NCBI GenBank assembly: GCA_037501455.1
Contig: CM074856.1
Location: 89,044,001 to 89,108,000 of the forward strand
Source of the DNA: Lantana camara
Taxonomy: Eukaryota > Streptophyta > Magnoliopsida > Lamiales > Verbenaceae
Direction of reading: 5' to 3'
DNA length: 64,000 bases
Of the stretch, positions 2,649-61,459 are shown piece after piece. Both the position numbers and the translations under genes were made by a program. The notes under the pieces are model-generated. The model searched no databases. It was not told where the DNA came from and saw only the letters and a program-made list of their open reading frames with translations. Within the stretch, counting starts at the first letter, position 1; every line of letters begins with the position of its first letter.

Positions 2649-4828
2649 GTAAGTTCATATTTGATATCTATATGCTTATATGATCATATCCATCCATAAT
2701 TTTCTGATTTTGATCCATGATGATATGGTTTTGGACATTTGAATAAATAGTTAGGTCATTTGAAGAATATGTGATTTCTTTGAATTCTTAGGTTTAAGGT
2801 TTGATATGGAGCTATATATGAACTCCTTGTGGCTCATTTATTCTTGTGTGAACTTGTATTATGTGTTGGTTGAGTGGTTGTTGAGTTACTATTAATGGAG
2901 TTAAGGTTTTTCTTAATCTTTTCTTCCAATTATTTGTTGCCATCAATGGATTTGTTGTTGTCGGGTGTTGAAGTGTGTTTAAGGGCTGATCTGTGCATGC
3001 TTTGTTGTTACTTTGGGTGTGAAATTTTACTGCTTTGTTACCTGCTAGCTGTTGTCGTTGTTATATAATTGGAACAAGGGAAGAATAGGGACCTGCTGCC
3101 ATTTCCGCGACTGGAATGAATCTCCCCGGGCGGGGAGATTTGTACCTGGGAAGTCCCTGGCCGGGGACTTTCATGCCGAACCCTCTGTAATATCTCCCTA
3201 GCCGAGGAAAGTAGAGAAGAAAATTTCCCCTGGCGGGGAGATGACCTACTGATGCATAGCTTTCTCTTTGTGTTGCCTTTTATTTGCTTTGTATCTAAAT
3301 TTAAGGAGTTGTTTACTGCCTTCTTACGTGTGGGCTTGAAGATTGCATGGATGTGTTTTGCTTGTAATATACTATGCAATATGTGAATATATATATATAT
3401 ATAATACGTTATGTAGGTGTGTGTATATATGTACGTAATATATTGTATATATATATTTATACATATTTAAATATGGAACTTTGTATTAGTTTTTATATTA
3501 TGAACTTAGTTAATTAGATCTTGCATGTATGACTTTCGAGCTTCTTAATTCCTTTCCTATGCCTCTTATTTGTTTGTTTTTAATTTATATGCCATGTAAC
3601 CATGTTATACTATATGATAAATGCCTCGTATTAAATTTTATGAATTCATTTGATATGAATTTTTAAGTGATTTGAACTTGAACACTTTAAGTGGCTCTTT
3701 CTCGCATTCCATTTACATCCATTGCATCCATGAGCATCGCCATGCGTCTACATGATTCATGATCAAGTCTAAGTCTTGAGTATGTAATTGTTTATCTCAG
3801 ATTCGTGTCGAGAGGTGTCGGATCCACCATTTAACTCTTTTTTGACCGTCAACGCTCATCCGTTGGTACTTTGGTAAAAGGTGAGGTTTAGGTTTGTTTT
3901 CTTTTTAGTTAATACCACCTAGAACCCTATGTGCTCGTTTTCAAGCCCGCATGTGACTATACTTTTCTATTTATATAATAAATACGTGCTTATAAGATAT
4001 GTTTATGATCTTGTCATACGATTAAGTGTTTTGAACTATATGTACGAGCATATATGAGCTTGAAATATTTTGTAACGAGACTATGCTCCAAACCGCGTGT
4101 ATTCAAGCTAGGTACGGATTAGGATGACACGGAGAGGTACGTCTATAGCATATGCTAAGTTGCAAGGTAAGGTATGCTCTGATAAGGTATGTAAGTTTTA
4201 ATATGATAAGTTTGGTATGTAGCGAGTTTTGGTACTGGGTTGGTAATAGTTTACTTTAGGGGCCCCCGAGATGACCATTGGGTCGCCGGTTATGACGCCT
4301 GTGCACGATCTCATTTGAAGTACTCAAGTGTGACTCATGGAGGTTGAGGAGGCGTGATGCTTTGAGCCATCGGTGGATAACCGGGGAAGGCACTACATGG
4401 ATTAGCTATCCAGTCTGTTTTTGGTAATGGTAACAGTAATGTGCAGTGAGGGCTTGCTCCCCAAACTACATCGTTGATGGGGAAGGATTGTTTGTGATTT
4501 ATGCCTTACGTTTGTATTTCTATTAAGAATTGGGGAGTTAGAGTAAGACCCATGCTCGCCGGGAATAAGAATCAGTTTGATATGTTGATTATGAAACGGG
4601 ATAGGAGCTTTCCTTTATATTATAATACGAATACGTTAAGTTTGTTATGTTTGATAAGTATAAGTTTAAGTTTGATTCGAAAATGACTTTAGTATGCAAA
4701 ACCCTATCCCGGTTCATAGTCTTTTGTTTATTACGTGCTTTGATCTATATGTATACGTGTGTGGGTGTGCATTAACCCCTCACTCAGTCGGTGGACTGAC
4801 CCTATCCTTTCAACTTTTCAGATTGCAG
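2649..4828 (+). other. Putative intron inside the LTR leader
   Basis: A donor-like GGG|GTAAGT at 2649 and acceptor-like TTTTCAG / TTGCAG at 4821 / 4828 bracket the palindrome array. The acceptor follows a hairpin and a pyrimidine-rich stretch. Equivalent signals recur at equivalent places in the other gypsy LTRs of the window. Whether it is spliced is inference; no transcript evidence is available here. Confidence 0.4.
3121..3242 (+). repeat. Palindrome array, two doublets (5' LTR)
   Basis: Four imperfect palindromes: TCTCCCCGGGCGGGGAGA (3121-3138), AAGTCCCTGGCCGGGGACTT (3151-3170), a decayed TCTCCCTAGCCGAGGA (3193-3208), and ATTTCCCCTGGCGGGGAGAT (3223-3242). Centre-to-centre distances are about 31, 41 and 31 bp. 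The truncated 3' LTR has the same four at the same distances. Confidence 0.85.
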
Positions 4829-5266
4829 GTTTTGGGTCGTGCTAGGCGGAGTCTTGAGTCGGTCAAGTTCTAGTCTCCTATCCAAGTTGCATTTCATTTG
4901 CATCCAGACACATCTTGTATATGATTCAATCTTGATAGTGGAGGGATGTATATATTATGTATTTGTTGATTATTTATGTATGAATCTTATGAACTTTTGT
5001 TATGTATATATTTATTCGGGACAGGCTTCTGGGGATAGTTGAACCCGTTTTTGTGGATTTATCTTCTTGAGTTATGTTATATGCTTTCGGTTTCTTACTG
5101 TTTTGCGCGCTCTGGTCCTGTTTTAGCTCTTCCTGGCTTAGCGTGTGTGCGTAGGTTCCCGTTCGCTTAGTCTTGGGCTCATGTATGGATTTCTATTTCA
5201 TATGCGGGTTTGGGTCTAGGTGCGGGGGATGTGGTGACTCGCCGCTCCAGGTGCTACATCTTAAAG

Positions 5267-5284
5267 TGGTATCAGAGCTCCGGG
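5267..5284 (+). promoter_or_regulatory. Primer-binding site (initiator tRNA-Met type)
   Basis: TGGTATCAGAGCTCCGGG lies 8 bp after the LTR end. TGGTATCAGAGC is the usual plant tRNA-iMet primer complement, where minus-strand DNA synthesis starts. It fixes both the LTR border and the plus orientation. Confidence 0.9.
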
Positions 5285-5569
5285 TTGCAAAACCGGAGTT
5301 CTAGTGTTGTGCCATCTCGAGTATAGGTTGTAAGGCATAGGAACAACGTGCTAAGGTGTGCATTGCATTAAGATATGTGAACTTCCTTGAATTTTATGCT
5401 TTACAACTTGTTCAAATTCACTTAATTGTTGCTTTTGCATACCTTAATTGCGCATATTACTTTATAAACATGCTATGCTCACTATTAACCGCATGCATCA
5501 TATTTTCAAAGTAGATTGTATATTGTAGGTTGATTTTATACGACAACTAAACTGTGCCCCTCAACAATC

Positions 5570-6316
5570 ATGGTCCCTAAGATGAAGCTAGGGTCGACAA
5601 AAAAGAAGGGACTCTTACAAAATCCAAGGCGCCACAACGCTAATCACTCAATAAAAGTGCAAGGGATGGTGGCTCCAATTATGGGAAGGAATCCCTCATT
5701 CAAATCTGAAACGTCCTTTGCCCGGGAAATAATTTCGTGCACGCATTGTGGAGAACCTAATCACGTATATAGGAATTGTTGGAGAAGGTTAGATAATTGT
5801 ATTAGAAGCGGTTCCTTCATCCACAAACCAAATGTATGCCCTCGGACCCATTTAAGGCGACCGAATGAGTCCAATAGGTTGGCCCAACTCATGGACGAAA
5901 TTAGGAAAGATTTTCGAGAGACGAAACCCAAAACCAAGTCTATTATATGGGTTGAGGGTACGAAGGAAGCTCTTAGAGAAGAATCCAAGAAGCTAAAAGA
6001 GAAAAGTCGAGTAGGAGGATTTGGGTTGGAAAGTATCTCGGGATTCAGGCCAAAACAGAGACGAGAGAACTCTCAAGTGGGTCCAAAGGAAAAGAAGAAA
6101 GAACAAATATCTTCATCAACGGAACCATCTCCGTGTGTTCATTGTAGGAGGAGTTCTCATACCTATGAGAGTTGCTGGAAGAGATTGGGGCTATGTTATG
6201 GATGTGGATCGCCGAAACATAAATTGAAGGATTGTGAACGCGAAATCCAAAGAAATAACCAAAAGGTAATTGCATTCATATCACGAGCATTCATCCCGCA
6301 TCGTATCTTGAATTGA
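5570..6316 (+). CDS. Gag-like protein with duplicated zinc-knuckle pairs (248 aa)
   Basis: This is the only sizeable intact ORF of the element. ATG at 5570 is the first in frame, about 285 bp after the primer site. Two similar modules are visible. In the first, C57-C60-H65-C70 is a good CCHC knuckle, followed by a degenerate one (C77, S80 where Cys is expected, H85, C90). In the second, C189-C192-H197-C202 and C209-C212-H217-C222 are both intact. Each pair is joined by a similar CW(R/K)RL linker, so the pair looks duplicated. Between them is a basic, charged, probably helical stretch (residues 105-180). Gypsy gag normally has one such pair after a capsid domain; no capsid domain is recognisable here. 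Probable role: RNA binding and packaging in the cytoplasm. An alternative is a C-terminal gag remnant. Confidence 0.7.
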   Translation: MVPKMKLGSTKKKGLLQNPRRHNANHSIKVQGMVAPIMGRNPSFKSETSFAREIISCTHCGEPNHVYRNCWRRLDNCIRSGSFIHKPNVCPRTHLRRPNESNRLAQLMDEIRKDFRETKPKTKSIIWVEGTKEALREESKKLKEKSRVGGFGLESISGFRPKQRRENSQVGPKEKKKEQISSSTEPSPCVHCRRSSHTYESCWKRLGLCYGCGSPKHKLKDCEREIQRNNQKVIAFISRAFIPHRILN

Positions 6317-8205: not shown

Positions 8206-10676
8206 TGTGACACCCCGTCTGATCAACCGTACAGGTATGACGTATGTGCGCGATTTAGTTTATTTAATTTCATTTATTTGTTAATTTAATTCTTTAATTA
8301 TTATTTCTTTTGAAATTTGAATTCACTTATTTGAAATATTTACCTCTTTGTTGGAAACGTGTTTCGTTTGTGTTTGATTTGAGATCGAAATTTCGTGCTA
8401 TTTTAATATGTTGGAGTATTAAGTGTTGTGAATTCGTTTTTGTGCTTTTTTTATATTTTCGGACTTGTTTGAAATGGTAACGCGCCATTTTATTTGTTTC
8501 GGGGACACGAGGGCCTAACTAGTTTTAGCGCGCCTTGTGTTCCGGAATTTATAACTTGAGCTCGAGAATTTGGATTCGTATTCCAGAAGTGGCTTCGGAC
8601 TCGTAACAAAGATACGGAACTATGGAATCTAGATTTACATTTTTCTAAGCCTATTTGATACTCCGAAATTTGCCCGAAAGACAGACTAGCGACCATATGA
8701 CTACCTTTCACTTATTTGCACATAAGTCCCTCAATTTTCAATATTTTCACATGAAACCTGGACCCACATGACCCCAACTTGATACTCTATCATCCCTCTC
8801 TCCCTCACATTGATCCACACAAGGCAAGGAGTAGAAATTCAGCCATTTTTGTAGAAACTAATAGCAATCCCGTAACTATTCACCCAAGTGAGATTTTGAG
8901 CTCCAATCTCCATTTGCCTCCATCTTCTTCAAGGGGTAAATACACATTTGATATCTATATACTTATAAGATCATATCCATCCATAAATTTTATGATTTTG
9001 TTCAATGAATGATATGGTTTTGGACATTTGAATGAATAGTTAGGTCAATTGAAGAATATGTGATTTCTTGGAATTCTTTGGTTTAAGTCTTGATTTGAAG
9101 CTATATATGAACTCCTTGTACCTCATTTATTGTTGTGTGAACTTATATTAAGTGTTGGTTGAGTGGTTGTTGAGTTACCATTAATGGAGTTAAGGTTTTT
9201 CTCAAGCTTTTCATCCAATTAGTTGTTGCCATCAATGGATTCGTTGTTGTCGGGTGTTGAAGTGTGTTTAAGGGCTGATCTTTGCATGCTTTGATGTTAC
9301 TTTGGGTGTGAAATTTTGTAGCTTTGTTACCTGTTAGCTGTTGTCGTTGTTATATAATTGGAACAGGGGAAGAACAGGGACCTGTTGCCATTTCCACGAC
9401 TGGAATGAATCTCCCCGGGCGAAGAGATTTGTGCCTGGGAAGTTCCCTGCCGGGGACTTTCATGCCGAACCCTCTGTAACATCTCCCTGGCCGGGGAAAG
9501 TAGAGAAGAAAATCTCCCCTGGCAGGGAGATGACCTGCTGATGCATAGCTTTCTCTTTGTGTTGCCTTTTATTTGCTTTGTATCTAAAGTTAAGGAGTTG
9601 TTTAATGCCTTCATACGTGTGGGCTTGGTATTATGACCTTGCATGTATGACTTTCGAGCTTCTTAATTCCTTTCCTATTCCTCTTATTTGTTTGTTTTTT
9701 ATTTATATTCCATGTAAACATGTTATACTATATGATAAATGTCATGTATTGAATTTACATCCATTGCATCCATGAGCATCACCGTGCGTTTACATGATTC
9801 ATGATCAAGTCTAAGTCTTGAGTATGTAATTGTTTGTCTCAGATTCGAGTCGAGAGGTGTCGAATCTACCATTTAACTCCTTTTTTACCGTCAACGCTCA
9901 TCCCTTGGTACTTTGGTAAAAGGTGAGGTTTAGGTTTGTTTTCTTTTTAGTTAATATGACCTATAACCCTATGTGCTCATTTGCAAGCCCACATATGACT
10001 ATAGTATTATATTTTTATAATAAATACGTGCTTATATGATATGTTTATGATCTTGTCATAAGATTAAGTGTTTTGAACTATATGTACGAGCATATGTGAG
10101 CTTAAAATGTTTTGCAACAAGGCTATGCTCCAATCCGTGTGTATTGAAGCTAGCTACGGATTAGGATGACACGGAGAGGTACGTCTATAGGATATGCTAA
10201 GTTGCAAGGTAAGGTATGCTCTGATAAGGTACATAAGTTTTAATATGATAAGTTTGGTATATAGCGAGTTCTGGTACTGGGTTAGTAATGGTTTACTTTT
10301 GGGGGCCCCCGAGACATGAGTAAGGGAGACCCGGGACGACCATGGGGTCGCCGGTTATAACCCCTGTGCACACTCTCATTTGAAGTACTCACGTGCGACT
10401 CGTGGAGGTTGAGGAGGCGCGATGCTTTGAGCCCTCGGTGGGCCCTCGGTGGATAACCCGGGAAGGCACAATGTGGATTAGCTATCCCGTGTGTTTTTGG
10501 TAATGGTAACGGTAATCTGTACTGAGGGCTTGCTCCCCCCAACTACATCTTTGATGGGGAAGGATTGTTTATGATTTATGCTTTACGTTTGTATTTCTAT
10601 TAAGAATTGGGGAGTTAGAGTAAGACCCCGTGCTCGCCGGGTACAAGAATCAGTTTGATATGTTGATTATGAAACG
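8206..10676 (+). repeat. 3' LTR, truncated
   Basis: Matches 1919-4662 of the 5' LTR (the microsatellite block near 3390-3520 is missing here), then homology stops abruptly within gaaacggga. What follows belongs to a Tat-like element. The splice-acceptor region and 3' end are therefore absent. The donor-like site at 8936 has changed from GTAAGT to GTAAAT. Confidence 0.85.
9410..9531 (+). repeat. Palindrome array, two doublets (3' LTR)
   Basis: Palindromes are centred near 9418.5, 9449.5, 9490.5 and 9521.5 (31/41/31 bp), matching 3121-3242. Each LTR has its own mutations: the first palindrome is damaged here (GGGCGAAGAGA) but intact in the 5' LTR, while the third is better preserved here (TCTCCCTGGCCGGGGAAA). 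Confidence 0.85.
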
Positions 10677-11021
10677 GGAATAAAGAGCTCCTTGAATCGA
10701 CCTCTAAAAGCCTGATTGCACGCACTAAATTGCCTCTTTTGCTCTGAAGCTCAAAAATGCTAGGGGTTTATAGTAAAGAATGCGGTGGATGGACCATCGT
10801 TATTTATAAAGGATGGTTCGGAAGTTGAAAGGTCACAATGATTGCACCTGCGACAGCCTACCTGACACCATCATTATGCTTTTCCCGCCCAGCCGGGTTC
10901 GAATTTGAAATCTCTGCCAAAACCTAGAAGATAAATTGGCAGTCGGCGCGTGTACGGACGCATTATCCTCAACCAAAGTTTGGCAGCCACGTCACACGTA
11001 CCTACCAACCTGGGGGGCTAA
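10677..11021 (+). mobile_element. 3' end of a Tat-like gypsy internal region
   Basis: 345 bp of unique-looking sequence joined to the truncated LTR on the left and ending in a polypurine tract (CCTGGGGGGCTA, 11009-11020). No ORF domain is recognisable. It is assigned to a Tat-like element only because of the tract and the LTR that follows. Confidence 0.5.
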
Positions 11022-12158: not shown

Positions 12159-14071
12159 CAAGCAGTCAGGCAGGTGTAATTCCACTATACGTGATTTGTT
12201 ATTAAAAGCGGTAACAGGAATCAAGAATCAATTAACACGTACGGGTGGAATTACGTCCAAGTATGCAGTCAGGTAAGTAGGATATATAATGCATATGTTG
12301 ATATCCATAGGACTTCTGTTGATGCCCATTTTACCTTAACGATCCACGCGTTCGGGTGCTCAATAGGGACTGGGTATGCCAAAGGTTACGGATATCTATG
12401 TATTACATTTTAGGGGACCCGACGAGAACGGGTATTTATTCCATCTGGACTCCACTTTTCACTTATTATATTACAGGAATAGGGCAGGTAAACAGACAAG
12501 CAAGCAGGGACAGAAGTTTATTAATTACTAGCGGGGAAAAAAAGTACAGATTAACCTCTTTCTTCGGTGATGGTTCGGGTAACTAACCCTGGCCATCCAG
12601 GACAAGGTGATCTGGCGGGTTCATGACTCCCCCAAACCGAAACCCCATCTTCTACCAAACCTCCTGGCAGTTATCTGAGTTAGTCGAAACAGGATGGGAC
12701 TTGTGCAAGAGTTCACCGTTGGCCCGATACTTCCCCGGTTACCTCAATACACAAGCCCCTGGGCCCCAGGAACAGGTACAGGATCCACACCGGCGAGCCC
12801 AGCACTAGGAGAGCCGGGGCAATCAGGATCTCGTAAAATAGGCTCAGGGTTAACACTTACACAAGTTATAAAGCATTTTCGGTAGTAGTTGGTATACAAA
12901 GTATGGCAAGTTTAATATGAAAACCATTTAGCTTATTTTATATCATGCAAGGTTATAGGATGTTTATAAAAGAAAACCCTCACCTCCATGTACAAGAAAA
13001 ACCAAGAAAGGAACCACGAGTCTCAAAAGTTTCCACTGAGGAAATCACTGTACAAGAAAGGAAACACAGTGTACTTGTGAGACACGACTCAAAATGGTAC
13101 CAAGTAGGACGCACGACAAATGTTCATGAAGTGGTGTACGTGTCATGGCATGATTCAATATGAAATAAATTATAAAATGTTATGGATTGAAGTGATCGTG
13201 TTCATGTGAACAATTAAATGCAATCAAGTACAAATGAAATGCAACAGATAACATTTACTCGAATATGAACACGTATCACGTTTAATCACTAAAATTAAAT
13301 CATATAATTGTAAAACATATTTAATATACAAATTCACATTCTTAACATATCAATACATAGAAATGCATGTCAATTATTAGCACTTACGAACACAAAACGT
13401 AAAAGAAACGAAACCGAAAATGAAAACGAAAGAAAGGTAAAACGAGGCAAGCCACCTCCCCGTTACCCCCTCCAAGAGCAAACCCGGGAACGCCCGTTAA
13501 GGGACACTGGCGGCAAAGGGCATAGGGCTAACGGGCGTTACCCCTTGCCTGCACAAATGGGGTAACGCCCCGTTACCCTAAGCAGACACCCACAACAACA
13601 ACCTGTTACCTCCCCCAAGAACAAAAGCAGTAACGGTGGTTACTCACCACTGAAGTCCAGCTTCAAGCTCCGCCTTCAATGGCGGAGCATGCACCCCATA
13701 CACACACACCCCCCAGAAATTAACTCCAAATCACCCAAAATTCATACCACAAGTCATATACGACACTTAGATCATATATTCGCAAGTAAGAGCTCACGAA
13801 ACGAGCTTAAACACTTAAAACCCCAAACCCAGCATTATTCATCGTCTCTCCCACATAGCCACATTGACAAGGATTCAAGGCACGAAAGATACATGAAATC
13901 GAAGCACGTAATGAGAGGAGTACAAATCCTACCTTGGGTTGTTGATCGGACGGTCGGATCTCGTGGACTCGAGCTCAAGAGTCATGGGTTCCAAAAGAGG
14001 TGTTTTGCTCTCCTTGCTCTCTCTCCCTTCCTTGCTGAAACGTGGGAAATGGGAGGAGAGAAAGGGCTTGG
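11565..14071 (-). mobile_element. V2: gypsy LTR, 3' part
   Basis: Minus-strand Tekay-like LTR: on the plus strand it opens TGTGACACCC...CACCACATCC, the complement of the usual 3' end. It contains the inverted GCTAGGCGG module, the hairpin near 12085, a GGGCCC box near 12760, a palindrome array and a donor-like AAG|GTAGGA (minus) at 13931. Its 5' end is cut at 14071 by LTR U (flank CTTGG), so the rest should lie beyond the window. An (AT)n run occupies about 12114-12155. Confidence 0.75.
13450..13578 (-). repeat. Palindrome array in V2 (AACG-CGTT type)
   Basis: Palindromes are centred near 13459.5 (half decayed), 13493.5 (GGGAACGCCCGTTAAGGG), 13534.5 (GGCTAACGGGCGTTACC) and 13569 (GGGTAACGCCCCGTTACCC); spacing is about 34, 41 and 34.5 bp. 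The same dyad occurs in the unrelated Tat-like LTR at 22746. A separate hairpin, GCTCCGCC/GGCGGAGC with a 6-base loop, follows near 13667-13688. Confidence 0.8.
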
Positions 14072-14562
14072 TGTAGCACCCCGAGCGGTGGGCACCACAT
14101 CCCCCGTACTATAGCTCGACACGTGTAACGAAACAAAAACTTCGCACACGCGCCAAACCATAGAGAACGGGAGACAAGCAAAATCAAACTCCTAGACTAG
14201 GTGGTCTAGACCCTAATACAGGGTGCGCATCAAACAAAAGCAAGTGCAGAAGCAAAAGGATCTCGGAATACAAGTATACATACATATACGAAATACAATA
14301 ACAGAATTTAAAATAATTATACGTGTCATTCCAAAACGTATCAAATTCATATACATGAGTTCAAAAGCTTGAAAATATAAGATAAACCCAAAAGGAATGC
14401 ATGAGACCCGCTACAAGACTCCAAGACTCGAAACAAAGACTGCCGCCTAGCACGAGCCACGCCAACACCTGAAGCCCAAAGAAAAAAAAAAGGAGAGAAA
14501 TAACGAGGGTCAGTCCTAGAGACTGGTGAGGGGGCTAACCCACGCACCCTTATACGTATAAT
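14072..14562 (-). mobile_element. U: gypsy LTR, 3' end
   Basis: Opens TGTAGCACCCCGAGCGG...CACCACATCCCCC on the plus strand, the complement of a Tekay-like LTR 3' end. It has the inverted GCCTAGCAC / CTAGGTGG module and the AGTC-GACT hairpin near 14505. It is cut by the copia element at ~14562. The remainder should lie right of the window. Confidence 0.7.
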
Positions 14563-15139
14563 AAGGGTGGCGGGCCCGAAATAGAGTGACGGTGTGGCGC
14601 AATATTACAAAAAATTTCGCCATAACCTCGTTATCAAAATATTTCCAAAATATTTTAATAAACAGCGAACAAATCAGGCTGAATAACTCTAATATATACA
14701 GGAATCAATAACATAATTTTAAATCACATAGTATATAATCATAATATACAAATAATAATTTCGGCAGCATAACGGTATTACCGTACTGCAAAATTGGCTA
14801 TCAACGACACTTTTCCAGCACCTCGATATTTTCTCGTGAAACCGGTAGAGCTTCCCTGGAATATCCCCGGCTAAGATTTCGGAGTGTGGACTCCGGTAAT
14901 ATTTCGCTAAATACTCGAGAAAATATTTTCTAGAAAGACACCTTTTTTCTAAAACTAGAAAATCCCTATTTTCTAATAATTTAGTGGATTATATATTAAT
15001 TATATAACCACCTAATTAAATATAATTAATCCTTAATTTAGGATTAATTATTTCTAGAGAGAGAGAATATTAAAGTTGCCAAAGACAGAACGAAATGCTC
15101 TGAATATGAATGAATAAAAAATTATACAGCTTAAGCCCT

Positions 15140-15147
15140 TATTTATA
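15140..15147 (-). promoter_or_regulatory. Copia LTR TATA box
   Basis: TATAAATA on the minus strand, conserved in the right LTR at 22489-22496. It lies where an LTR promoter would be expected, with the G-box-like cluster upstream of it in the direction of transcription. Confidence 0.55.
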
Positions 15148-15239
15148 GGTATAGCCTTTGGTGTATTCATGTAATTTTTGTATTTTTTCTTTGGCGTCCA
15201 AGATGCTTCAGCCAATCCGAGACCACCGGAGTGTAGTGC

Positions 15240-15720
15240 ACGCCCAGACAAGCAACGTGGCACTGAGCACAAGCCAATTGGGGTCCACACGCACCCGTAC
15301 GCGCCGCCCATGTGGCAGCTGTGTATTTGGCTCGTGTGAAGGGCACGCTACCACGAGCAGCTGCCACGTGGCGGTCCGGTCTGGCCCGGTACGATCGTTG
15401 GTTCAACCACCGGACTGGTTCAGGGGTGAATCGGTCGGTTCAACTTGGTCCAGACCATCTGCCACATGGACAAATACCATTCGTCCACGTGTCCGGGTCG
15501 GTTCAACTTGAATCGACCCTATCCGAACCGTAATCGACCCTGCCCATCGACCCGATCCGTTGATCCGTTGACTGTCAGCCCAGATCCAATCTGGATTGTT
15601 CTCACGCGTTGACGTGGCGCGATCTGCGAGGTCCACGTGTCGAACACTGTGGCGCCCAATCAGCGCCACTTGGCGTCTGACACGCTGATGTGGCTTGACA
15701 TGTCAGCTACCCCGTCAGCA
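15240..15720 (-). promoter_or_regulatory. GC-rich G-box-like cluster in the copia LTR
   Basis: Contains CCATGTGG, GCCACGTGGC, CCACATGG, TCCACGTGTC, GACGTGGC and a second TCCACGTGTC within ~330 bp, plus GGTTCAACC/GGTTCAACTT repeats and CCGTTGATCCGTTGAC. ACGTG cores are known bZIP/bHLH sites, so this looks like the upstream enhancer part of U3. Function is inferred from motif density only. Confidence 0.45.
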
Positions 15721-16864
15721 CTTCTGCCACATCATCAATAAAACCTTTTTTTTTTTTTTGTTCAAAAATTTTATTTTCTCCAAAATAAAATTTCGGGCAT
15801 TTCCAACTCTTTGGAATTTAATTTATTTTCTCAAAATAAATTCCTTGGCTATTTTCAATCACATTGGAAATTCATTTCTCTATCTCCTTTTAATATTTTC
15901 TCTTTGATCTTCGTTGGCGCTTGCGGGGGGACATGCAGGACTAATTAATTTTAGCTCCAAACGGGTCAATCTATTATCATGCCATGATAATAATTGATTA
16001 CCATTTAACAATATTTAATTCCACTAAATAAATATTGTGCATTCTAAAATTAATTAAATTATTCACGAATTTCTCGATCTAGAATAATTTTTCATTTTAC
16101 TCCTCTGTACAGATATCCATGAAAAATAATTCTATACTACTATCATTTATTTTTCACTTCCAATCTGAAATTTCTTGATTCGTCTTAAGCTCAAATTCCC
16201 TGTATGTGAAACACATTCAACATACAACTTCGGTGACGCACACACGAAGTACTTTGGCCAAAGTTTTAATTCGAACTTTTTACAACTCTATTTCAGGGAT
16301 ATCTCTTAACCTTCCAGCAAAGCTACATATTTCTCGATCAGTATTTCTCTTTAGCACATTTCATGCAACCACCGAATGTACAAAGTATTTTGGCCACCCG
16401 TTACCGAGACCTCACTTCTGATTATATCACAATGATGAACACTACATGCCTAAAGTAGAAACATTGTCAAGATTAAAAGTGTAATGCTTCCGAGATTTTG
16501 TTCATTTTAGATAGCAGTATAAAATAAACAATCTCAGTGGTACAGTTCGATGTTTCCAACCTCATTAAAATCATCAATGTATTATAATTGGAAACTCCAT
16601 ATCCCTATGACGAAAGACTAATCATCTTATATAACACATTATAGTCTCGATAAGAACACTTTCTTATCATACCAACTAGAACTTTAATGACACGTGATTT
16701 TTGGTATTTAAAGTCTTTTCCTATGAAACACATTTCATATAAAAATACCATCACACGTCATTAATCATTAAATTTGTAAAATACTCATAACTTGCTTTAA
16801 TTTCAATATTATTAATCCAAAATATTTACAATATAATTGGATTTTCAGGGCATTAATCCCAACA

Positions 16865-16884
16865 ATCTCCCACTTGCCCTAAAT
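16865..16884 (-). promoter_or_regulatory. Copia polypurine tract
   Basis: The plus strand reads ATCTCCCACTTGCCCT just after the LTR end, so the sense strand is AGGGCAAGTGGGAGAT, adjacent to TGTTGGGATTAATGCC. It overlaps the last codons of the RNase H frame. Confidence 0.75.
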
Positions 16885-17394: not shown

Positions 17395-17400
17395 ATAATC

Positions 17401-18123: not shown

Positions 18124-18126
18124 TTG

Positions 18127-18834: not shown

Positions 18835-19059
18835 ATGAGTTGGGGTTCCCCATATCCGAAGATAGGAGACACTAGGCTTTCACCCTCGCCATAGTTCCAT
18901 TGGTCTTTTAGGAACCAACTTGGATGGAACAAGGTTTAATATATGTGCCGCCGTTTTGAGTGCAAAGCACCAAAACAAACTTCGCAGGGTAGCATGGCTC
19001 ATCATGGATTTTACTATTTCCATCAAAGTTCTATTTCTCCTTTTTGCAACACTGTTCTG
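18835..19059 (-). pseudogene. Copia integrase core, broken linker segment
   Basis: Between the two larger ORFs the frame reads SAPGTP, an in-frame TAG (a Gln position in the family), then QNSVAKRRNRTLM. The family has a catalytic Glu in this ERRNRT motif; here it is Lys (AAA), so the DDE triad is lost. Further small frame damage follows before 18834. Confidence 0.75.
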
Positions 19060-20276: not shown

Positions 20277-20286
20277 TTGAATAATT

Positions 20287-45048: not shown

Positions 45049-48000
45049 TGTAACAGCCCAAAACAGGGCCTGGATGAAAACAGTAAGTTAAGGGAATTGG
45101 TAAAGCGTTTATAGACCGTGATCCAACTTTTTGAACCTTCATGCATTGCATTCTTACATGAACTTTGTGCTCGTATATGATCTGACATGTTTTAAGGGGG
45201 AATTCTTGACCTTTGATACAGTTTACTATTCATAACCCTAGCCTACCTTGTTCATATTGCTACTCGAACCCTAGAGGTTCATCACACATGTTTCCCAATC
45301 GTTTGAACTTGTTTCCCAAGCTCAGAGAGTCTTTCTTGAACCATAAGGGTACTTTTGGAACTTACCGACCAAAGCTACTATTCATCTGAAAAATGAGCTT
45401 TTGATTCTGATATCATTTCCTACCCAAGTTTACAGTCAAATCGACCCTTGAGCCGAGACGAGTCTTTTGAAATCATTCTTGACTTGGAAATCTATTTTGA
45501 GCATTGGTTTTATTGAAAATGTTTACGAAAACCCTAGTTCACTGTTCCTTCTACAAACGATTTTCATTCGGAAAATGTTTTCTCTTCGGATTTGAACTAC
45601 TTGAGCTATTTCAAGATTTTTGAGATGTTTTACAACTCTTGATTCAGACCCTAGCTTGAAATTTTGAAGTGTACGCTTGTACGTAAGAATTCACTATTCA
45701 TTCTACGTTTTCAACTTTTTAACGGTAAAATGTTTTATAGTCGATATTAGACTCAAAACGCTTCTCGATTTATTTCTTGAATTTTGGAAACAATCCGGAC
45801 TTGAAAATCATTTCCGAAAGTCGTTTTTCACTCGTGTTGAGTTTCGAGCTCAAAACTTTTATTCACTAAAAATAATGTATCTTTCAAACGGTAAATCCGA
45901 TTTCGACGTACAAATATGCGTTTCGAAGCTAATTTTTGCCCGGACGGAATGGTTATACTTCCAGCCACTTACCTTCATGTTTTGGAGGTGAAATTACCGA
46001 AATACCCCCCAATAGTCCCATTTTACCTTCATAATGTCCAAAGCTTCCAAGAGAAGACTTTCATACCCTTCCTTACATTTTATTTCCAAGGTGAGGGGCT
46101 TATCTTCAACTATAAATAGAGGGCAAGAGGCATTAGAATCCTTGCTCAATGTTGTGTTGACAACACCCTTTCTTCCTCTCCCTCTCCCCCTCTTTGCCGT
46201 CGGCTCCCCCCTTCATTAGCTAGGTCAGTTGTTTTGTTTTATGTTATGTTTTAGGTAGTTTATGTTTTTATGTTATGGTATGTTTATATTATGTTTAGGT
46301 TGGATCTTCGGGTCTTCCCTAAGCCATATAGGATTTTATTTTACGCATTTATTATATAGTTTTCATGATATGTTTGAATATATGTTTATATGTTTTAATT
46401 GTTTAGTATATGCTTGAATATGTTATGAATTGCTCTAGTATATGCTATGATCATGTGATATGGTTGTTATATTATGAGAATTGATGCATGATTATGGAAT
46501 TTTAATTATGTTCATGCATGTTAGCTAATGGAATAGTGATTTACAATTAATTATGTCACAACTCGTTACATGTTGATATTGAATTTAATTGTTACATGTT
46601 ATATGCCTAAGGTTCATGATATGATATGATATATGTTGTGACATGTTGTATATGATTCTTGAATTATGAATTGAGCTTATGATATGATATGGATTAATGG
46701 ATTAAAGCCTTGATCATATGTTATACACTTTAACCAGTGTCACATGTTATAACCTAAGATAGAATAGTGTTTCATAACTTGATCTTATACCTTAATTGGT
46801 TCTCTTAGCCATAGGTTATACCTTTAACCTAGATCACACTTGATTATATTAACATGAACTTGAAACTATAGGTTATAATCAAGATCATAATTTAATTAGG
46901 GGGGGTGTGTGTGTGCATGCCGTGTGTGTGTGTGCGTACGTGCATGGTGTGTGTGTGTACCGTGTGTGTGGGTGTGTGTGTATAGTAAGGGTTTGACCCG
47001 ACCCTTTGACCCGACATGTGAATAGTAACATGTGAATAGTAATCGTGAATAGTAATCTGGAATAATGCTTTTGAATAGTAAAAATGAAATAAAACTTGTG
47101 CTTTCTTAATAGGCCTTTGCACCTAGGGTTTCCATATCCAGGGTCTAAAATGTGTTTTCAAAATATGTTCTCTTTCGTGGACTTGTTTCTTAACCTAAGG
47201 TTTGTGATAGGATTCATAATTTGACTAAAGCTTACTCGGTTATAGTAAGATCATAGTCCAACATTAAGAGTAACTCACTTTAACGTATTCCTTTGTGTGT
47301 TACCCTTCTTGAATACCTTAAATGGTATTACTCTCTTGTGTTACATGTTCTTTACATGTTTCTTGTTCATTGTTTCATGCATTTCTTATGTATCATGGTT
47401 AGTAGTGGGTCTTAGTTCTTAAGCTCACTCTAGTACACCACATACAGGAGTTAAAGTTGAGCACTGGGATCCCCAAGGCACCGTGTAATCTGTCTACCTA
47501 CCTTTTGTTACTAATAGGTGAGGTGAAGTTAAAAACGTTTCCAAACTAGAACCACGATTATACTATCGTATCATATGTTTTGAAATTCAAAGCTAAACCT
47601 CGTTTTGAACTATCCCTGTTATCGGGATATTCTTTTGAAAGGATCATTCATCCTTTAATAGCATACCTTGATCAACAGCACATGTTTTCCAAAGTTCTGC
47701 ATTCTTGTTGAAAGACAGTTACCTGTTCTGCATATGTTTTCAAAGTACAGTTTCACATGTTTTACAGACAGCATCACATGTTTACAGACAGAATCATATG
47801 TTTTACAGACAGCATCATATGTTTACAGACAGTTTCACATGTTTATAGTTAGCACACTGGAGTGGTACTCTGGTCACTGCTAATCTTGAAATGCAAGCAT
47901 ACAGTTTACAGTTTGGGCCCGGCGGTTATGTGTGGAGGTGATGTTCGGGAGGTGTGCGCCAACGGCATCACCAATACTGACCGCCACAATTAGACAATTG

Positions 48001-49082
48001 ACACCGACTTTTAGCAGGAGGTTTGTTAAGTCAGGACAATCTGTCTGGGAAAGGACAGCAAATATGTTCCCATTACATGTTTACAGGTCGCCTAAGGCTA
48101 GCTACCCGAAGTGATAACCGGTGGAGGATGGTGCATGTTTGTATGTGTTGGTGGATTATTGTTGACCTTGGTCCGATGCTCTACTATATGTGGAGTAATT
48201 GTTAATCTTGGTCCGATACTCTACTTCATCATGTTTTTTCTGGAGTAAGGATGGAGAAGCCTAGCTTGCGGGCAAAATTCTGTTTCATAAAGGATGGTTC
48301 ATATTTGGAAAAGTTCCCTTTATCCGTATCCCATTTTATGAAAGAACTATGAACCATCTACAACATATGTGTGCGCGTGTGATAGCATTCATGAAAAGAG
48401 TTTTGAAACTCATAATCTTTTACAGCATTGCATTCAAACAGTTTTACCAATCGAACTTGTTTCAATTTCTTCTTTAAAGCTTTGCATTAACAGTTTTGAA
48501 TTACACTTCAAGTTCTTTATCATACAGTACCTTCTTTTAAGTATTCCCTCACTTAGTCCTTTTGACTAATACCTTTCCCGTTTTCTTGCCTCGTGGTTTC
48601 AGGTCTTGCAGCCGCAGTATAGAGGTATCTTGAAGCTCTAGATTGTCACTTTTCTTTCTGTCAGGACTTAGTATTACTTCTCTTTTGTGTCCTGCATATG
48701 TTTTATGGCTGCATTGCTTTATGTTTCTGAATACTTGAGTATCTTTGTTATACTCTTTCTGCTACTCTGTTACCGATACATTGAACTCTGCTATATCGGT
48801 ACTTATATGTGAATTTGTTATATGTTTTGATATGCCGAGTCTCTCTTACACAATCAATATGTTCTTGCTTGTTACATGCCATCACGCATATGTTTTGAAA
48901 AGTTTTAAAATACTCTGATTTTCCACTGCATAACCACATCGTTATACATGTATAGTTCTAATAGACAGCTGTTCGCTAGAGTATTTCTTGAGTGATGGCT
49001 CACACCATTACTTGAGAGGTGCTTCAGTGCGAGGGTTGAGACGCCGCTCTCCTCATGTTCCTGTACGGGTGGGCGCGTTACA
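45049..49082 (+). repeat. G 3' LTR (4034 bp)
   Basis: TGTAACAGCCC to GGGCGCGTTACA. It matches 34754-38807 almost throughout. Differences include the TGTAGC/TGTAAC start, the size of the TG-rich patch (46903-46982) and a few indels of ~10-20 bp (for example near 46040 and 47200). TATA at 46111, donor-like TAG|GTCAGT near 46223, tandem repeat 47755-47847, hairpin TTAGTCCTTTTGACTAA near 48553. Confidence 0.92.
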
Positions 49083-53995: not shown

Positions 53996-55657
53996 CAACC
54001 CTAATTAGAAAAGGAATGTGAACTTTGAAACCTAATTTGAGTATCGTTTTTGAGAATTTTTGAAAAAGGCTTTGACCGTTGAATTTTTCTCTTCAAAATG
54101 ATTCTTTAGGTTAATAGTCAAAATTGTTGGTCAAAGTCAAAGTCAATGGTCAAAGTCAATGGTCAAAGGTCATTATTCAAGTATACGGTATGTATACGGT
54201 CTTTATACAGTATGTATACGATATTTATACAGGGATACCTACCATATCTATATAGTATTTATACAAGAATACATGCGGTATCTATACTAGAATACATACG
54301 GTATTTATACAAAAATACATACGTATTTATTTAAAAATACATTTAGTATTTATACGAAAGTATAGACGTATCTATACATAGAGGAATCAAATACGTATAC
54401 GTATATTATACATGTATACCATAACATATATCAATTGGTCAAGTATAATTATGTAACAATTAAACTATAGTCTAATTTCTAAAATATAACATTAAAGAAC
54501 ATGCAATAAATTAAATTAAATCATGTAATAAATTAAATTACCTAAGTATGATCATAAAATAATTAAAATGTAACATATAATATGCTAGAATAATTTTCAC
54601 ATAATTAATTTGTAACAAAATTAAATTATGTAACACCTTTCATAATAAACTATACTATAAGAAACATAATTCATAAATTCATGAATATTTAAAGCATAAA
54701 TTAAATCACATAATTCATGCATAAAATAAAACATATATTAAAATCTAAACGAAGCATAATTAATAAATGAATTAAAACATAAATTAAAACATAAAATAAA
54801 CTAATTATAACATAAAAAAAAATATAAGAAAACATACCTTTCAAGGGGGGAGGAGCTCGGTTTTAGGGGAGTAAATTAGCACATTTTGAAGGCCTCTCAT
54901 GCTCTATTTATAGGTGAAGGTTGGGGTCACTTTGTAATTTTTTCAAAATTAAAGGATAACATGGGGTTCTTTTCATAATTTCTCTAAAATAGGTTAGTTT
55001 CTTTCATAATTGTTGGAAGAGGGGTATTCTGGTAATTACACCTTTACACTGTGTATTTTAGGAGCTAAAAAAGTTCCCAAGAGCTAGAAAATAAAATTAC
55101 CTTCGAAACGGTTACTCATGGATCAAAATCGGATGTACGGTTTAAAAGTTATAAACTTCGGAAGAAAGGATTTTTCTTAATTTAATAAAACGTTTTTATT
55201 TATAAAAAAATTATAAGATATGACTTGCAAGTCCGAGAATCTCTTCAAAAATGTAGAAAAAATCGAGGAACGATATGGCGATGATTTCGAGGGATAAAAA
55301 GTTTGCCGATGGAAATATATTCCGCCGACAGAAAATTTCCTTTGAAAATAAATTCTTAAATTGCTCTGTACATATAAACGAAACCTCGAAGCGTTGAAAA
55401 GAGAACTGAAAAATTCTAAGAAAATTAGTATAGGTTCTCTAGGGTTTCTCGAATAGAATAGCATAGTGTCGGTTTGGAAATAAATAGCGGTTTTAGGGTT
55501 TCGGTGCCATTTCCCCCCCCCCCCCCCCCCCAAACATCACATAATGTCACAAAATTAAAGAACACTTAATTCATGTAGAGATGCAATGCATGAAGCATTT
55601 TAAGGATGGATCAAGATATATAAACGCATTCCGATTATCCTTAGTTTACCGTTTCCA
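53996..55657 (-). repeat. W LTR, piece 3 (5' part)
   Basis: Upstream part of the minus-strand LTR, homologous to the start of G's LTR: the complement of 55580-55660 gives GGGCCTAG...CGTTTATA...TTCATGCATTGCAT, as at 45068-45155. TATA box (minus) at 54904-54912; donor-like AAAG|GTATGT (minus) at 54837. A 19-base poly-C run lies at 55513-55531. No genes. Confidence 0.75.
54170..54420. repeat. Degenerate ATAC-rich tandem repeat in W
   Basis: About ten irregular copies of a 20-25 bp unit like ATACATACGGTATTTATAC, ending in GTATACGTATATTATACATG. The start abuts several GGTCAAAGTCAA repeats (54124-54170). No equivalent in the two G LTRs, so it expanded in W or its subfamily. Confidence 0.7.
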
Positions 55658-56119
55658 ACTAGGCCCCCGAAAACATGTCTGTTGATATTGTCCGCTTTGG
55701 TGCCTAAAATCGACATCCTCACGGTTTTGTTCCTCCCAATGGCTAAGATCACCATCCGGGAAAAGGCCTCAACAGTGGGAGGTTTCCACCCACTTAAAAA
55801 GTGTTAGTTTCCCTCCCCAACCGATGTGGGACAAGCACCTTTGGCTTTTACAGTCCACCCCCCTAAGAGGGACCAGCGTCCTCGCTGGCACACCGGCCCG
55901 GGCCCCGGCTCTGATACCATTTGTAACAACCCAAAAACCCGCCTGTTGATATTGTCCGCTTTAGTGCCTAAAATCGACACCCTCACGGTTTTGTTCCTCC
56001 CAATGGCTAAGATCACCATCCGGGAAAAGGCCTCAACAGTGGGAGGTTTCCACCCACTTATAAAGTGGGCTTAGTTCCCCTCCCCAACCGATGTGGGACA
56101 AGCACCTTTGGCTTTTACA
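55658..56119 (-). mobile_element. TRIM/SMART-type miniature LTR element
   Basis: Two direct repeats of ~195-198 bp (55658-55852 and 55922-56119; the left one has a degenerate outer end) flank just 69 bp. On the minus strand the right repeat ends GTTGTTACA, followed after two bases by primer site TGGTATCAGAGC (55908-55919); the 69 bp end in a polypurine stretch (CCCTCTTAGGGGGGTGGAC, 55853-55871) abutting TGTAAAAGCC. Conserved words such as TGTTGATATTGTCCGCTTT and CCCAACCGATGTGGGACAAG are known from a widespread plant miniature family. No coding capacity. Confidence 0.75.
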
Positions 56120-56123
56120 ACAA

Positions 56124-56138
56124 CCTCCCCCCTTAAAA
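56124..56138 (-). promoter_or_regulatory. Polypurine tract of W
   Basis: The plus strand CTCCCCCCTTAAAAG gives CTTTTAAGGGGGGAG in sense, preceded by AGGACAGATTC as in G (GGGACAGATTC). W's LTR should start right here, but the TRIM occupies the junction. Confidence 0.7.
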
Positions 56139-56639
56139 GGAATCTGTCCTGGGATTCCACAACCGTTCCAGGGACAACTTCGGCTGATGTTCTTGTATCT
56201 TTATTTCGGTTCCCACCTTACTTTCCAAATGTTGTGTCCTTTCCTCAGGATCTTTATTAAGAGATTTTCCGATTTCTCAACCTAGGTAATTTCATTTCCA
56301 AAAATCTTATCTGGATTAGACCATCGGTTGAATTTGATCCTCATGATACTTCCTTCATTACCAAAACTCGGGACGACTCAGGGAGGTACCCGAGAGTCTA
56401 ATACGCATGCTTTCATCATGTCCTCTAGACTCTTTATCGTTCTTAGCGACTATCCATATGTCTGAGGATGTGCTATTGTGATGAAATCTAAGTTTGTTCC
56501 CATAACTCTGGAATACTCTACCAAAATCGTGATGTGAACTTTGAATCTCTATCAGCCGCTATATTAACCGGTGCTCCATGAAATCTAACAATCTCCTCTT
56601 GATACCGTTTTTGTTAAAGATTTATTCTTATTCGCTATC
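56139..56639 (-). pseudogene. W integrase core remnant
   Basis: On the minus strand, frames with many stops give pieces such as MGTNLDF...AHPQTYG and TIKSLEDMMKACVLDS, clearly homologous to G's integrase around QTDGQSERMIKYLEDLLRAY. The Glu-containing segment is mutated. Too damaged to code. Confidence 0.7.
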
Positions 56640-57583
56640 TGTTGTGTGTAGAAATTGTATGATTTTAAGCATTAATTAGATTATATTCTGGTGCCGTTTG
56701 ATGCGTTTATGTGTTTATTTGGCTTCGTTCAGGTGTCTATAGAGTTGGAGTTATGAAACAGCGAAGCAGAGCGATTTCACGCATGTTTGGGAGATAAAGT
56801 GCTAACTCCCGTTACCACTTAGCAGTATAAAAGGAGTAACTCCCGTTACTGGCCACAGGAGGGGAGTTTTGGTGAGAATAGAGGGGTAACGCCCGTTACC
56901 CTTATGTAGAGGAAAGGTTGTAACGCCCGTTATCACTGTTAAAGCGTTATGGCGATTCTAAAGCAGTAACGGGTGTTAACATAAGTAAGGCAATATTAGG
57001 TAACGCCCGTTACCTAGGGCGGCGAGAATTATCCTAGGGCTGCTATATTAATGCATTTTGGAGTCTTTAGTCAGGAGAGTTTCAGAGGGAGAGCCACAGA
57101 TAGACAGAAGGAGTTACAAAGAAAAAGTGTTTTCCTTCCAGGTCAAGACCTAGGGTTTGGAAGAAGGCTCCGAAGTTTCAGAGATTTTCAGAGAATTCGA
57201 GAAGACGACAGGATTGAATTCTGAGAACTATCTTTGGTTTTATTGTTGCTTTAATTTCCAAACTAATTCCTTTGAGTTTAGTTTTAGTTTCGTATGCTAG
57301 TTTTGTTTTTGGATATTGCTGAATGTTTATGAGATTAATTGTTAGACTTTGTTTAGATTCATTGACGATGATTTATTTTAATGCAATTTCCTTTAGTTTT
57401 ATAATTTTGGCTTCAATTATGAGTAGCTAATTATCTAGGGCTAGAGGAAGTGATGAGGATTACATGATGGATGCGTGATGAGATGCTTGAATGACTTTTG
57501 TTAATCCTTAGTTTCAAAACAGGTTTGAACGGACTTGCGATGGCTTGATCACCCTTAGCATGTGTCATAATTACCTCTTAAAA
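56640..57583 (+). mobile_element. Tat-like LTR fragment, 3' truncated
   Basis: Matches 22587-23500 of the Tat-like LTR, starting TGTTGTGTGTAG, and stops near GATCACCCTTAGCATG. The remaining ~550 bp of the LTR are absent. Flank CTATC on the left; no matching TSD is visible at the truncated end. Confidence 0.8.
56804..57011 (+). repeat. Palindrome array, three doublets (second Tat-like copy)
   Basis: Centres near 56808.5, 56842.5, 56892.5, 56926.5, 56972.5 and 57006.5: spacings 34, 50, 34, 46, 34. Best units: GGGGTAACGCCCGTTACCC and AGGTAACGCCCGTTACCT. The second unit reads GAGTAACTCCCGTTACTG. Spacing agrees with the first copy to within 1 bp. Confidence 0.9.
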
Positions 57584-59177: not shown

Positions 59178-60957
59178 TGTAGCGCCCCAACGGAGGGCCC
59201 CACATCCCCCACACCGAGACCCGACCCGCATATGAAATGGAGAGTCCGTACACGAGCCGAATCACGGCGAACGGGGACCCACTCACACACTAGGCTAGGC
59301 GGGAACTAGAACTGTCGAGACCAATCAACCAACCCATGAATTAAATGCCAGTGCAGAAGCAGGACAGAAAATCAATCACGAGGTTTAACGGAAAAGATCA
59401 CTAACATAAGTACCTAAACTCGGAAAAATTAAAACATAAATCATAATCACAAATTCACGGGTTCCATTATCCCTAGAGGTCTGTCCCGAATCAATATCAA
59501 AACATAATCATAATCGTACAATGCTCACAGTTGATCAAGTTTACAAGGTGCACGTGACAAGACTCAACTTAAATAAAAGACTTGACAGACACGACTTCCC
59601 ACCTAGCACTCCAAACCTGCTAGAAACTGAAAACAATCCGGGTTCAGTCTATAGGAGACTGGTGGGTATAAAACAGGGCATAATGTAAATAATATCGCAG
59701 AATTTAAACACCCACACATGCACGCTATAATCCCGTGCGAGGTTTTTAAGATATTTCTCAAGTGGTTAAAATAAAGGAAAACAACGCTCGGGATTACAGC
59801 TATCAAATTTATTCATTCATTCATAAGGTTTCATAGCCCGGCGAGAGGGCGTGCATAATCTCCAACCTTCTCCTCGTGTGTGCATATCAATTCAATCTTT
59901 TCATTAGTGATCATTCACATTCATACATATTCGTTCATAATCATAGTCATAATCATAATCACATCATGCATATTCATAATCATAAACACTTACAACTTTT
60001 TCCTCCGGGTGGTGGACGGGATTGCAAGGCCCGGCCACCTAATCATATCAATGTGGCTATGAGTTCATGAGTCCTCAAAGCCCGGTTAGCGTTTTCTCGT
60101 CAAAAACTCCTTGACGAGGTCCGTTTCGTCATAGTGCATTGTGGAACTAGCACATGGGATCCCCGTCGGCCCGATACCTCCCCGGATAGCCACATGTACT
60201 AAATTCCTGGGCCCGTGTTCAATTCATATCATGCACTTGTAAAAATCATAGGTAGGGTTCATAAATAAAAGGGGTCATACATTTGAAATCATTTACTCAA
60301 AATGACTCGATATATAAATATAGTATTTTGGCTTAAAACCTTTCACGTAAGGTATATATCTGGTCGTTTTAGCTATTAGAAGAGAAACCCACCTGTTACA
60401 CCTTACCGACAATACCAAAGAAAGAAAGATTTGAGGTGTCCTATGCCCGCCCTGGAGAAAACTGTACAAAGACAACATAATGTATACGTGAGACTCAAGA
60501 CTCTATATGAACCACATATGACGCACGGCACTGTTATGCACATGATATGGAGGCATAAAAGATGATATTATGTCATGAACACGTTCATGTGCACTATTAA
60601 GGAATTTAAAGCACATAATCAAACCATTCGTTCATTCATTTCATTCAAATTCATAAATTCATAAATCCATAACTCATATCAATTTAATCTAAGAATTCAT
60701 TTAATATTCATAACACGTAATATTCATATTTACAATTAGAAATAGAATAAATAAAACGTTCAATCAATAATCGGTAAATTAAAAACGTGAAATAGTTATC
60801 AATTAATTTCTAAAATTGAATTAAATCAAATAATATTTAAAATATATAATAAATATATATATATATACTCATATATGCATGCAATTACGTAACATAATTA
60901 ATATGCATGCATTTCATGCATAAACAACTTCATGCAATATTTATACTTAGTACATAC

Positions 60958-60958
<1 letters not shown>

Positions 60959-61022
<64 letters not shown>
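60959..61022. repeat. (TA)n microsatellite
   Basis: About 32 uninterrupted TA dinucleotides within S, followed by CA-rich repeats to ~61165. Length is likely polymorphic. Confidence 0.95.
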
Positions 61023-61025
<3 letters not shown>

Positions 61026-61332
61026 ACGTAGCACTCAAGCATGCATGACGCACACACACACAATATATATATATACAGTAACACACGCATGCATGCACCC
61101 TTCTACTGTACCAATCTGCACAGCAAGCACACACAACCTTCAAGCATACATAAATACACACGCACACACCCTGAACTAAAGAAGAACAGCAGCCCAAGGT
61201 CTGAATCAACACACACACGCAGCGACCTAAGAGCAAAGAGAAGGAAGAGAAGCAGCAACTCAGCAAGAAAGGAAAGAAGAAGAAGAACGAAGCAGCAGAA
61301 GGAAAAGGGAACAGAACAGAGCATCACGCAGT

Positions 61333-61459
61333 GGCTACCCGCCCGGGTAGCCAATCCTTCTCTAATCTCCCCGGCCGGGTAGGAGGTACAGAAAGTCTCT
61401 GTAACAGGAGTACCCGGCCGGGTACTCTCCAAGAGGAAACTCTCCCCGCCCGGGGAGAG
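61333..61459 (-). repeat. Palindrome array, two doublets (S)
   Basis: GGCTACCCGCCCGGGTAGCC (61333-61352), CTCCCCGGCCGGGTAGGAG (61367-61385), the perfect GAGTACCCGGCCGGGTACTC (61408-61427) and CTCTCCCCGCCCGGGGAGAG (61440-61459). Centre distances are about 33.5, 41.5 and 32 bp. Arms differ in sequence among the four; the CCG(G/C)CCGG centre is shared. Confidence 0.9.

Follow-up and report, generated by a model that had tools for sequence, protein, structure and literature searches.

Eight arrays of paired palindromes occupy the long terminal repeats (LTRs) of retrotransposons in a 64,000-nt stretch of Lantana camara DNA (the window), which is part of a 1.27-Gb plant assembly. Each array carries four to six GC-rich dyads of ~20 bp arranged in doublets. 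The two dyads of a doublet lie a rigid 31–34 bp apart, related LTRs carry different palindromes at similar places, and changes in one arm of a dyad are in several comparisons matched by changes in the other. The chances seem to us evenly balanced that these arrays are cis-regulatory LTR modules bound by dimeric proteins, with two dimers per doublet.

Palindrome-doublet arrays in the window

The eight arrays (Table 1) had been described in a sequence-only reading of the window. All eight were present on re-measuring, with spacings no more than 2 bp from those claimed (array E, 32/51/32 rather than 30/53/32; array F, 32/43/32 rather than 33.5/41.5/32). Eight near-perfect GC-rich dyads in the window had log-odds of at least 16, all of them inside arrays, whereas 20 local dinucleotide shuffles averaged 0.25. 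Short and long gaps alternated in all six array types (p ~1.2e-4 by gap exchange, with B0 entered as 34/42/33), although this value is optimistic because A and F are related. In array B0, one half of the dyad at 13459.5 has decayed, and a candidate further site at 13636.5, together with a half site near 13602, would disrupt the alternation. The second B0 site was set at 13492.5 (1 bp off) in the arm-exchange, gap-alternation, slid-arm and CpG counts. A motif-free palindrome scan of the window was less clean. The bins at 30–32.5 bp (6 versus 0.93) and 33–35.5 bp (4 versus 1.02) were raised, but so were those at 21–23.5 bp (6 versus 1.11) and 75–77.5 bp (5 versus 0.99). The Ty1/copia element and Ty3 element C were array-free in the window scan.

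Geometry of the doublet across the genome

The exact 16-mer of family A has 1,083 copies in the genome, whereas its reversed control has none. Twenty-four copies were inspected; 11 have all four sites, each of these with gaps of 31–32/43–45/31–32. In A1 and 20 genome copies the doublet gap was 31 bp in 34 of 40 cases, whereas the between-doublet gap ranged from 39 to 52 bp, with the mode reached in 6 of 19 (p 8e-5 for the difference in rigidity; per-bp retention 0.985 versus 0.947). As the doublet gap is steady while the between-doublet gap drifts, we conclude that the rigid unit is the doublet. The earlier proposal that spacing is constrained therefore applies to the gap within doublets and not to the gap between them, which is not fixed. 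Helical phasing of all gaps was rejected, as the long gaps showed no helical phase. A satellite or simple tandem repeat was also rejected, given that the spacers are not alike and that what repeats is a symmetric doublet.

Pairs of CGGCCG cores 20–50 bp apart numbered 16,239 in the genome, compared to 1,302 for a control. Among 50 listed places, every one of them at the start of a single contig (C1), 23 had agreeing arms at distances of 31–32 bp (14) or 42–48 bp (9), while the 27 without agreeing arms were spread over 20 to 49 bp. At 20 further core-pair loci, selected for distances of 20–50 bp and not for 32, the gap was 32 bp in 33 of 86 cases and 31 bp in 3 of 86. Four loci (L068, L074, L078 and L081) are composite, with palindromes of the ATCCAC-type and GGAACG-type families close by each other.

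We also analysed a systematic sample of 20 × 10 kb (200 kb) from contig C2 only. Core-type palindromes numbered 44 in this sample versus 6.9 in shuffles, some of them being part of other repeats. There were 22 groups of at least three similar sites, of which eight were retained as core-type arrays; visual inspection excluded the remaining 14 (L027, L032, L033 474–840, L034, L035, L036, L043) as palindromic repeats of another kind or chance groupings. Arrays L041 and L044 7492 were added from a separate list of core-type palindromes, and the isolated site L040 9402.5 was excluded. Five of the resulting 10 arrays were complete and of the expected form (32/52/32, 34/40/34 twice, 32/51/32 and 32/39/31), and three were incomplete and in register (34/74 twice, 85/34). 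A pass that disregarded the arms found 26 neighbours of the same motif no more than 60 bp apart, of which 11 were at 32–34 bp, 5 at 38–45, 9 at 21–22, which belong to a different repeat (L035), and 1 at 13. Other palindrome-rich repeats lacking the doublet geometry (L027, L032–L036) were of the CCGACGG/CCGAGGG type (with ~72-bp steps in L034), the AATCGC type (21-bp steps) and the TGTCCGACACGTG type.

Shared core, family-specific arms and paired changes

Pairing between the arms exceeded expectation out to k9 but not k10, where k is the position of the arm pair counted outward from the dyad centre; this gives the dyad length of ~20 bp. A CGNNCG core is present in most dyads (G-C at k1 in 25 and C-G at k2 in 24 of the 38 window sites), whereas the central pair is complementary in just 13 of 38. 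Because most dyads share this core, the palindrome sequence is not wholly free. The view that the palindromes differ in sequence was thus correct for the arms, which differ by family, and too broad for the core, which recurs across families. Likewise, symmetry and within-doublet spacing are constrained as had been proposed, but so is the core sequence.

Pairing of each arm with its own partner (k0–k9) was found in 267 of 380 cells, compared to 170.7 ± 11.4 when arms were exchanged between sites; the largest of 5,000 shuffles reached 212, a result inflated by relatedness among the 38 window sites. Exchange within arrays had a smaller effect. Out of 20,000 permutations each time, 316 reached the observed value in the window, 847 when a single array represented each family, and 222 in the independent sample. 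Taken singly, only array F fell below 5% (199/5,000), the other seven arrays giving 831 to 3,364 of 5,000. Sliding one arm by one base reduced pairing at k3–k9 from 205 of 266 cells to 102 and 107. At loci L045–L064, array site 3 (site 2 if the orientation is reversed) includes unsymmetrical sites in which two different half sites are joined together, an arrangement common to several copies.

The compensatory changes sought by the sequence-only reading were found between elements A and F and within family A. Between A1 and F, six of seven two-sided arm changes keep pairing (p 0.007, taking chance as 1/3 each), alongside nine one-sided breaks, and pairing is kept in five of seven between A2 and F. 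In an alignment of distinct rows from A1, F and 20 genome copies of family A, 356 of 468 cells pair versus 335.7 ± 3.8 when shuffled. For the ACACG and GGAACG families, sites were collected from 40 genome pieces by means of the inner half site; invariance at k3–k6 was therefore built in and was not used as evidence. The ACACG family covaried at k8 (22/35 paired versus 10.8 ± 2.8), and the GGAACG family did so more weakly at k9 (20/51 versus 13.6 ± 3.0). A lean in the same direction was seen at k9 of ACACG (14 versus 9.2 ± 2.6) and at k8 of GGAACG (30 versus 25.2 ± 2.9), while no covariation was detected at k7 in either family or at k6 in the ACACG set.

The B1 and B2 dyads were identical at 89 of 108 positions compared to 64 of 110 in the spacers (p 1e-4) and 489 of 666 in the rest of the LTR. 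Insertions and deletions were limited to one of 1 bp in the array, whereas the rest of the LTR contained several of up to 43 bp. Conservation of the core (31/36) was no lower than that of the arms (58/72). Nine pairs changed between the LTRs of element A, every one of them on one side only and none with compensation; each pairs in one copy only, so pairing was lost after insertion (5262 was taken in the computations as the end of the 5' LTR). Symmetry and doublet spacing look to have been constrained while the elements were active, with decay later.

Host LTRs

Homology among their LTRs suggests that arrays A1, A2, B0, D, E and F sit in LTRs of one Tekay/Del-like group (Del and Tekay are the same lineage), with LTRs D, E, F and B0 placed there by LTR homology alone. 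Upstream of the array, LTRs A, E and F are all similar to one another, and in A and F the similarity continues across it (69%, 124 bp). Downstream of the array D matches F, and B0, whose LTR is on the minus strand, matches both D and F. The array begins ~1.2 kb from the LTR start in A and E, 1.0 kb in D and ~1.4 kb in F once its duplication is taken out, the starts of E and F being extrapolated. Together, this homology and the similar offsets show that palindromes differ between related LTRs although they lie at much the same position. The duplication in F (61448–61721) is a 137-bp tandem repeat that starts within the last palindrome of the array, with copies 100% identical.

The GTAACG motif is common to B0 and B1/B2, but the latter reside in another LTR, which outside the motif matches the others over only 51 AT-rich bases (E 1.7e-4). 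No coding region was assigned to B1 or B2, and the earlier label 'Tat-like' is putative. We read the B2 LTR as a solo LTR; a clear target-site duplication was not found for it. An open reading frame (ORF) of element A contains a 50-aa match to the Ty3-type protease/reverse transcriptase (RT) ORF of element C (E about 1e-8). RT was not found in element A, and no chromodomain was reported among the 30 of 121 window ORF pieces scanned. A search of 222 candidates with the gag-like ORF of element A (5534–6313) gave none with E ≤ 0.001, and a motif plus RT-word search of viral contigs gave 20 stretches with a single match to one motif, none a confirmed Ty3 relative. No array was seen in the LTR ending at 28664. 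A small TRIM-like element on the minus strand (55653–56141) has two ~210-bp terminal copies (91%) and a Met-type primer site at 55908–55919.

Table 1. Palindrome arrays, LTRs and retrotransposons of the window (dyad centres and centre-to-centre gaps in bp)
Feature	Position	Strand	Description
Array A1	3119–3243	+	Centres 3129.5, 3160.5, 3201.5, 3232.5; gaps 31/41/31
Array A2	9408–9532	+	Centres 9418.5, 9449.5, 9490.5, 9521.5; gaps 31/41/31
Array B0	13449–13579	-	GTAACG-type; centres 13459.5, 13493.5, 13534.5, 13568.5; gaps 34/41/34
Array B1	22745–22965	+	Six dyads, 22755.5–22954.5; gaps 34/50/34/47/34
Array D	29666–29872	+	GGAACG-type; centres 29676.5, 29707.5, 29754.5, 29786.5, 29829.5, 29861.5; gaps 31/47/32/43/32
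Array E	34147–34283	+	ATCCACG-type; centres 34157.5, 34189.5, 34240.5, 34272.5; gaps 32/51/32
Array B2	56798–57017	+	Six dyads, 56808.5–57006.5; gaps 34/50/34/46/34
Array F	61332–61460	-	Centres 61342.5, 61374.5, 61417.5, 61449.5; gaps 32/43/32; in register with array A
Element A 5' LTR	1919–5258	+	Tekay/Del-like; begins TGTGACACC, ends GGTGCTACA; Met-type primer-binding site 5267–5278
Element A 3' LTR	8206–10679	+	Extent is the stretch matching the 5' LTR
Ty1/copia element	14559–22584	-	~670-bp LTRs (~92% identical); RVT_2/integrase ORFs; no palindrome arrays
B1 LTR	about 22587–23482	+	~0.9 kb
LTR D	28665–31246	+	TGTAACGCCCCG...GGTGCTACA; flanks CTACA/ATACA; read as solo LTR
LTR E	start about 32924 (extrapolated)	+	Cut by element C at 34757
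Ty3 element C	34757–49080		4-kb LTRs, 95% identical; long pol ORF; seems to have inserted into LTR E
B2 LTR	about 56640–57562	+	Flanked by the integrase and downstream fragments of a Ty3 remnant on the minus strand
LTR F	59178–62976	-	Start extrapolated; extent inferred from matches to both ends of LTR A

Proposed binding of dimeric proteins to the doublet

The explanation that we favour takes the doublet as the working unit, in which two ~20-bp dyads 31–34 bp apart would lie about three helical turns from one another. A dimeric DNA-binding protein would occupy each dyad (CGNNCG core and family-specific arm), the two dimers of one doublet would touch, and the gap to the next doublet would serve as a flexible linker. 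As the geometry is kept while the arms change, the binding address would be particular to each family. Paired dimers on DNA fit the conservation of the core as well as the rigidity of the three-turn gap. We infer protein binding, the dimeric nature of the protein, an action on transcription and the location of the array in U3.

Several observations weigh against this explanation. Between B1 and B2 only two of four two-sided changes are paired, with 13 one-sided breaks, and the advantage of their dyads over the rest of the LTR reaches only p 0.056. Inner-site asymmetry is common in genome copies of the A array, two of the 10 sample arrays are off-geometry (31/32/70/32 and 20/50/20), and the LTRs of Ty3 element C, the most complete in the window, lack such an array. 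There is no consistent TATA box: TATATAAT was found 57 bp upstream of A1 and A2, TATATTAA occurs at 57044, ~27 bp past B2, and is absent from B1, and TATAWAW is present within 250 bp on either side in only 6 of 18 arrays. Moreover, outer arm positions vary yet covary (k8 of ACACG), so a tolerant protein contact is no explanation for them; pairing itself or template switching accounts for them better.

Possible alternatives: hairpins, symmetrisation and common descent

Selection on pairing itself is possible, though we regard it as doubtful. Each dyad would then form an RNA or single-stranded DNA hairpin with a 7–8-bp stem and a GNNC loop, serving in packaging, dimerisation or host small-RNA processing. 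Folding of the LTR strand is consistent with this proposal. All eight arrays folded better than dinucleotide shuffles (z −2.66 to −5.75), and all except B2 reached −40 kcal/mol per 110 nt, the microRNA-like level according to the available text of Martin et al. (PMC10760457). Among overlapping windows, this level was attained by 110 of the 253 that had their centre in an array, compared to 331 of 12,525 elsewhere. Hairpins would also account for the covariation of outer arms without fixed sequence at k8 of ACACG and, weakly, at k9 of GGAACG, and for the better match of an arm to its own partner than to arms of sister sites (316/20,000; sample 222/20,000). However, the arrays differ in fold topology, on which ground a conserved RNA structure spanning the entire array was rejected, and the would-be loop, the inner four bases, belongs to the conserved core. 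Wobble pairs did not favour the sense strand (14 G-U versus 24 A-C), k6 and k7 lack covariation in the ACACG set, and a fixed gap of 31–34 bp has no obvious role for separate hairpins. The sequence-only reading had named cooperatively bound dimeric proteins and paired RNA hairpins as examples of a cause; from sequence either may act, and of a conserved RNA fold no sign was found.

Mutation could in principle produce symmetry without functional selection, if strand switching templated by the hairpin copied one arm onto the other while the element was replicated or reverse transcribed. This appears unlikely. Three of the four array F sites differ in their arms, each nearly perfectly symmetric, and the 137-bp tandem duplication, its copies identical, starts within the last palindrome, both of which favour such copying; the rigid doublet gap, the conservation of B1/B2 dyads over spacers and the shared core are left unexplained, and every change in element A since insertion is one-sided. 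It is equally improbable that the geometry was simply inherited from one ancestral LTR array and has no present function: homology beside the arrays among LTRs A, E, F, D and B0 and their similar offsets accord with descent, but B1/B2 dyads outlast spacers, two-sided changes keep pairing, doublet gaps persist while between-doublet gaps drift, and the B1/B2 LTR matches the others outside the motif over just those 51 AT-rich bases.

Relation to known LTR features

The arrays had been thought to correspond to no named feature, which overlooks the palindromic repeated motif of Sireviruses. In the accessible portions of Bousios et al. 2010 (PMC2829016), these motifs have a CGG-CCG core and are clustered in Sirevirus LTRs upstream of the TATA box; they are suspected of being cis-regulatory and targets of small RNAs (PMC2829016; Bousios et al. 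2016 via the excerpts in PMC10760457 and PMC5311732). They are the nearest published feature. Both are short GC-rich palindromes with element-specific letters, repeated in the LTR, in which CpG is concentrated in the sites; here 59 CpG lie in 743 bp of sites versus 9 in 520 bp of spacers, although the observed/expected ratio of the arrays is only 0.50–1.04. The differences are several. Sireviruses are Ty1/copia elements with 3–14 motifs per 3' LTR, and eight or more per element when one LTR and the linker are counted together as in that paper, whereas here there are 4–6 dyads per LTR, internal regions being covered by the window-wide palindrome scan only. The hosts here appear to be Ty3/Tekay-like, on thin evidence from element A only (the 50-aa Ty3-type match). 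Spacer bases separate CGG from CCG in the Sirevirus motif, whereas CGG and CCG abut in the CGNNCG core. The consulted parts of PMC2829016 mention no doublet spacing, in contrast to the rigid doublets described here. Finally, only B2 lies upstream of a TATA-like sequence, A1 and A2 having TATATAAT upstream instead.

Variable CpG islands in Del LTRs, as outlined in the sections seen of Cruz et al. 2014 (PMC4029996), resemble the arrays in that the 5' half of the LTR holds a region that is variable, rich in GC and suspected to be regulatory. The words 'palindrom', 'inverted', 'hairpin' and 'dyad' occur 0 times in the main text of that paper, and, in the same sections, the cluster with all eudicot Del is reported as island-free, which differs from the arrays. 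LTR palindromes were likewise treated as microRNA-like structure in maize transposable elements by Martin et al. 2023 (PMC10760457), in whose available text the maize Ty3 elements show no obvious structural peak. The portions consulted of PMC6911290, on palindromic insertion targets, and PMC3601003, on LTR models, do not describe such arrays. Among the titles and abstract openings listed in searches of an open library, none concerned fixed-spacing paired dyads in Ty3 LTRs, most subscription papers being outside the search.

Implications

A broader and rather speculative extension of the dimer explanation is that the doublet is an interchangeable LTR address system, in which common machinery would set the form and a family-specific arm code would be read by a matching DNA-binding protein. 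The readers would be members of one protein family, encoded by the host or the element, and arms would diverge to evade cross-recognition or silencing. Composite loci such as L068, L074, L078 and L081 would then join the codes of two families.

If the doublet is regulatory, two ~20-bp dyads 31–34 bp apart, with any arms, would be a signature for control modules in plant LTRs. The idea of the Sirevirus palindrome would then reach Ty3 LTRs, and the arrays would provide natural variants with which to test protein binding against RNA pairing and mutational symmetrisation in transposon control regions.

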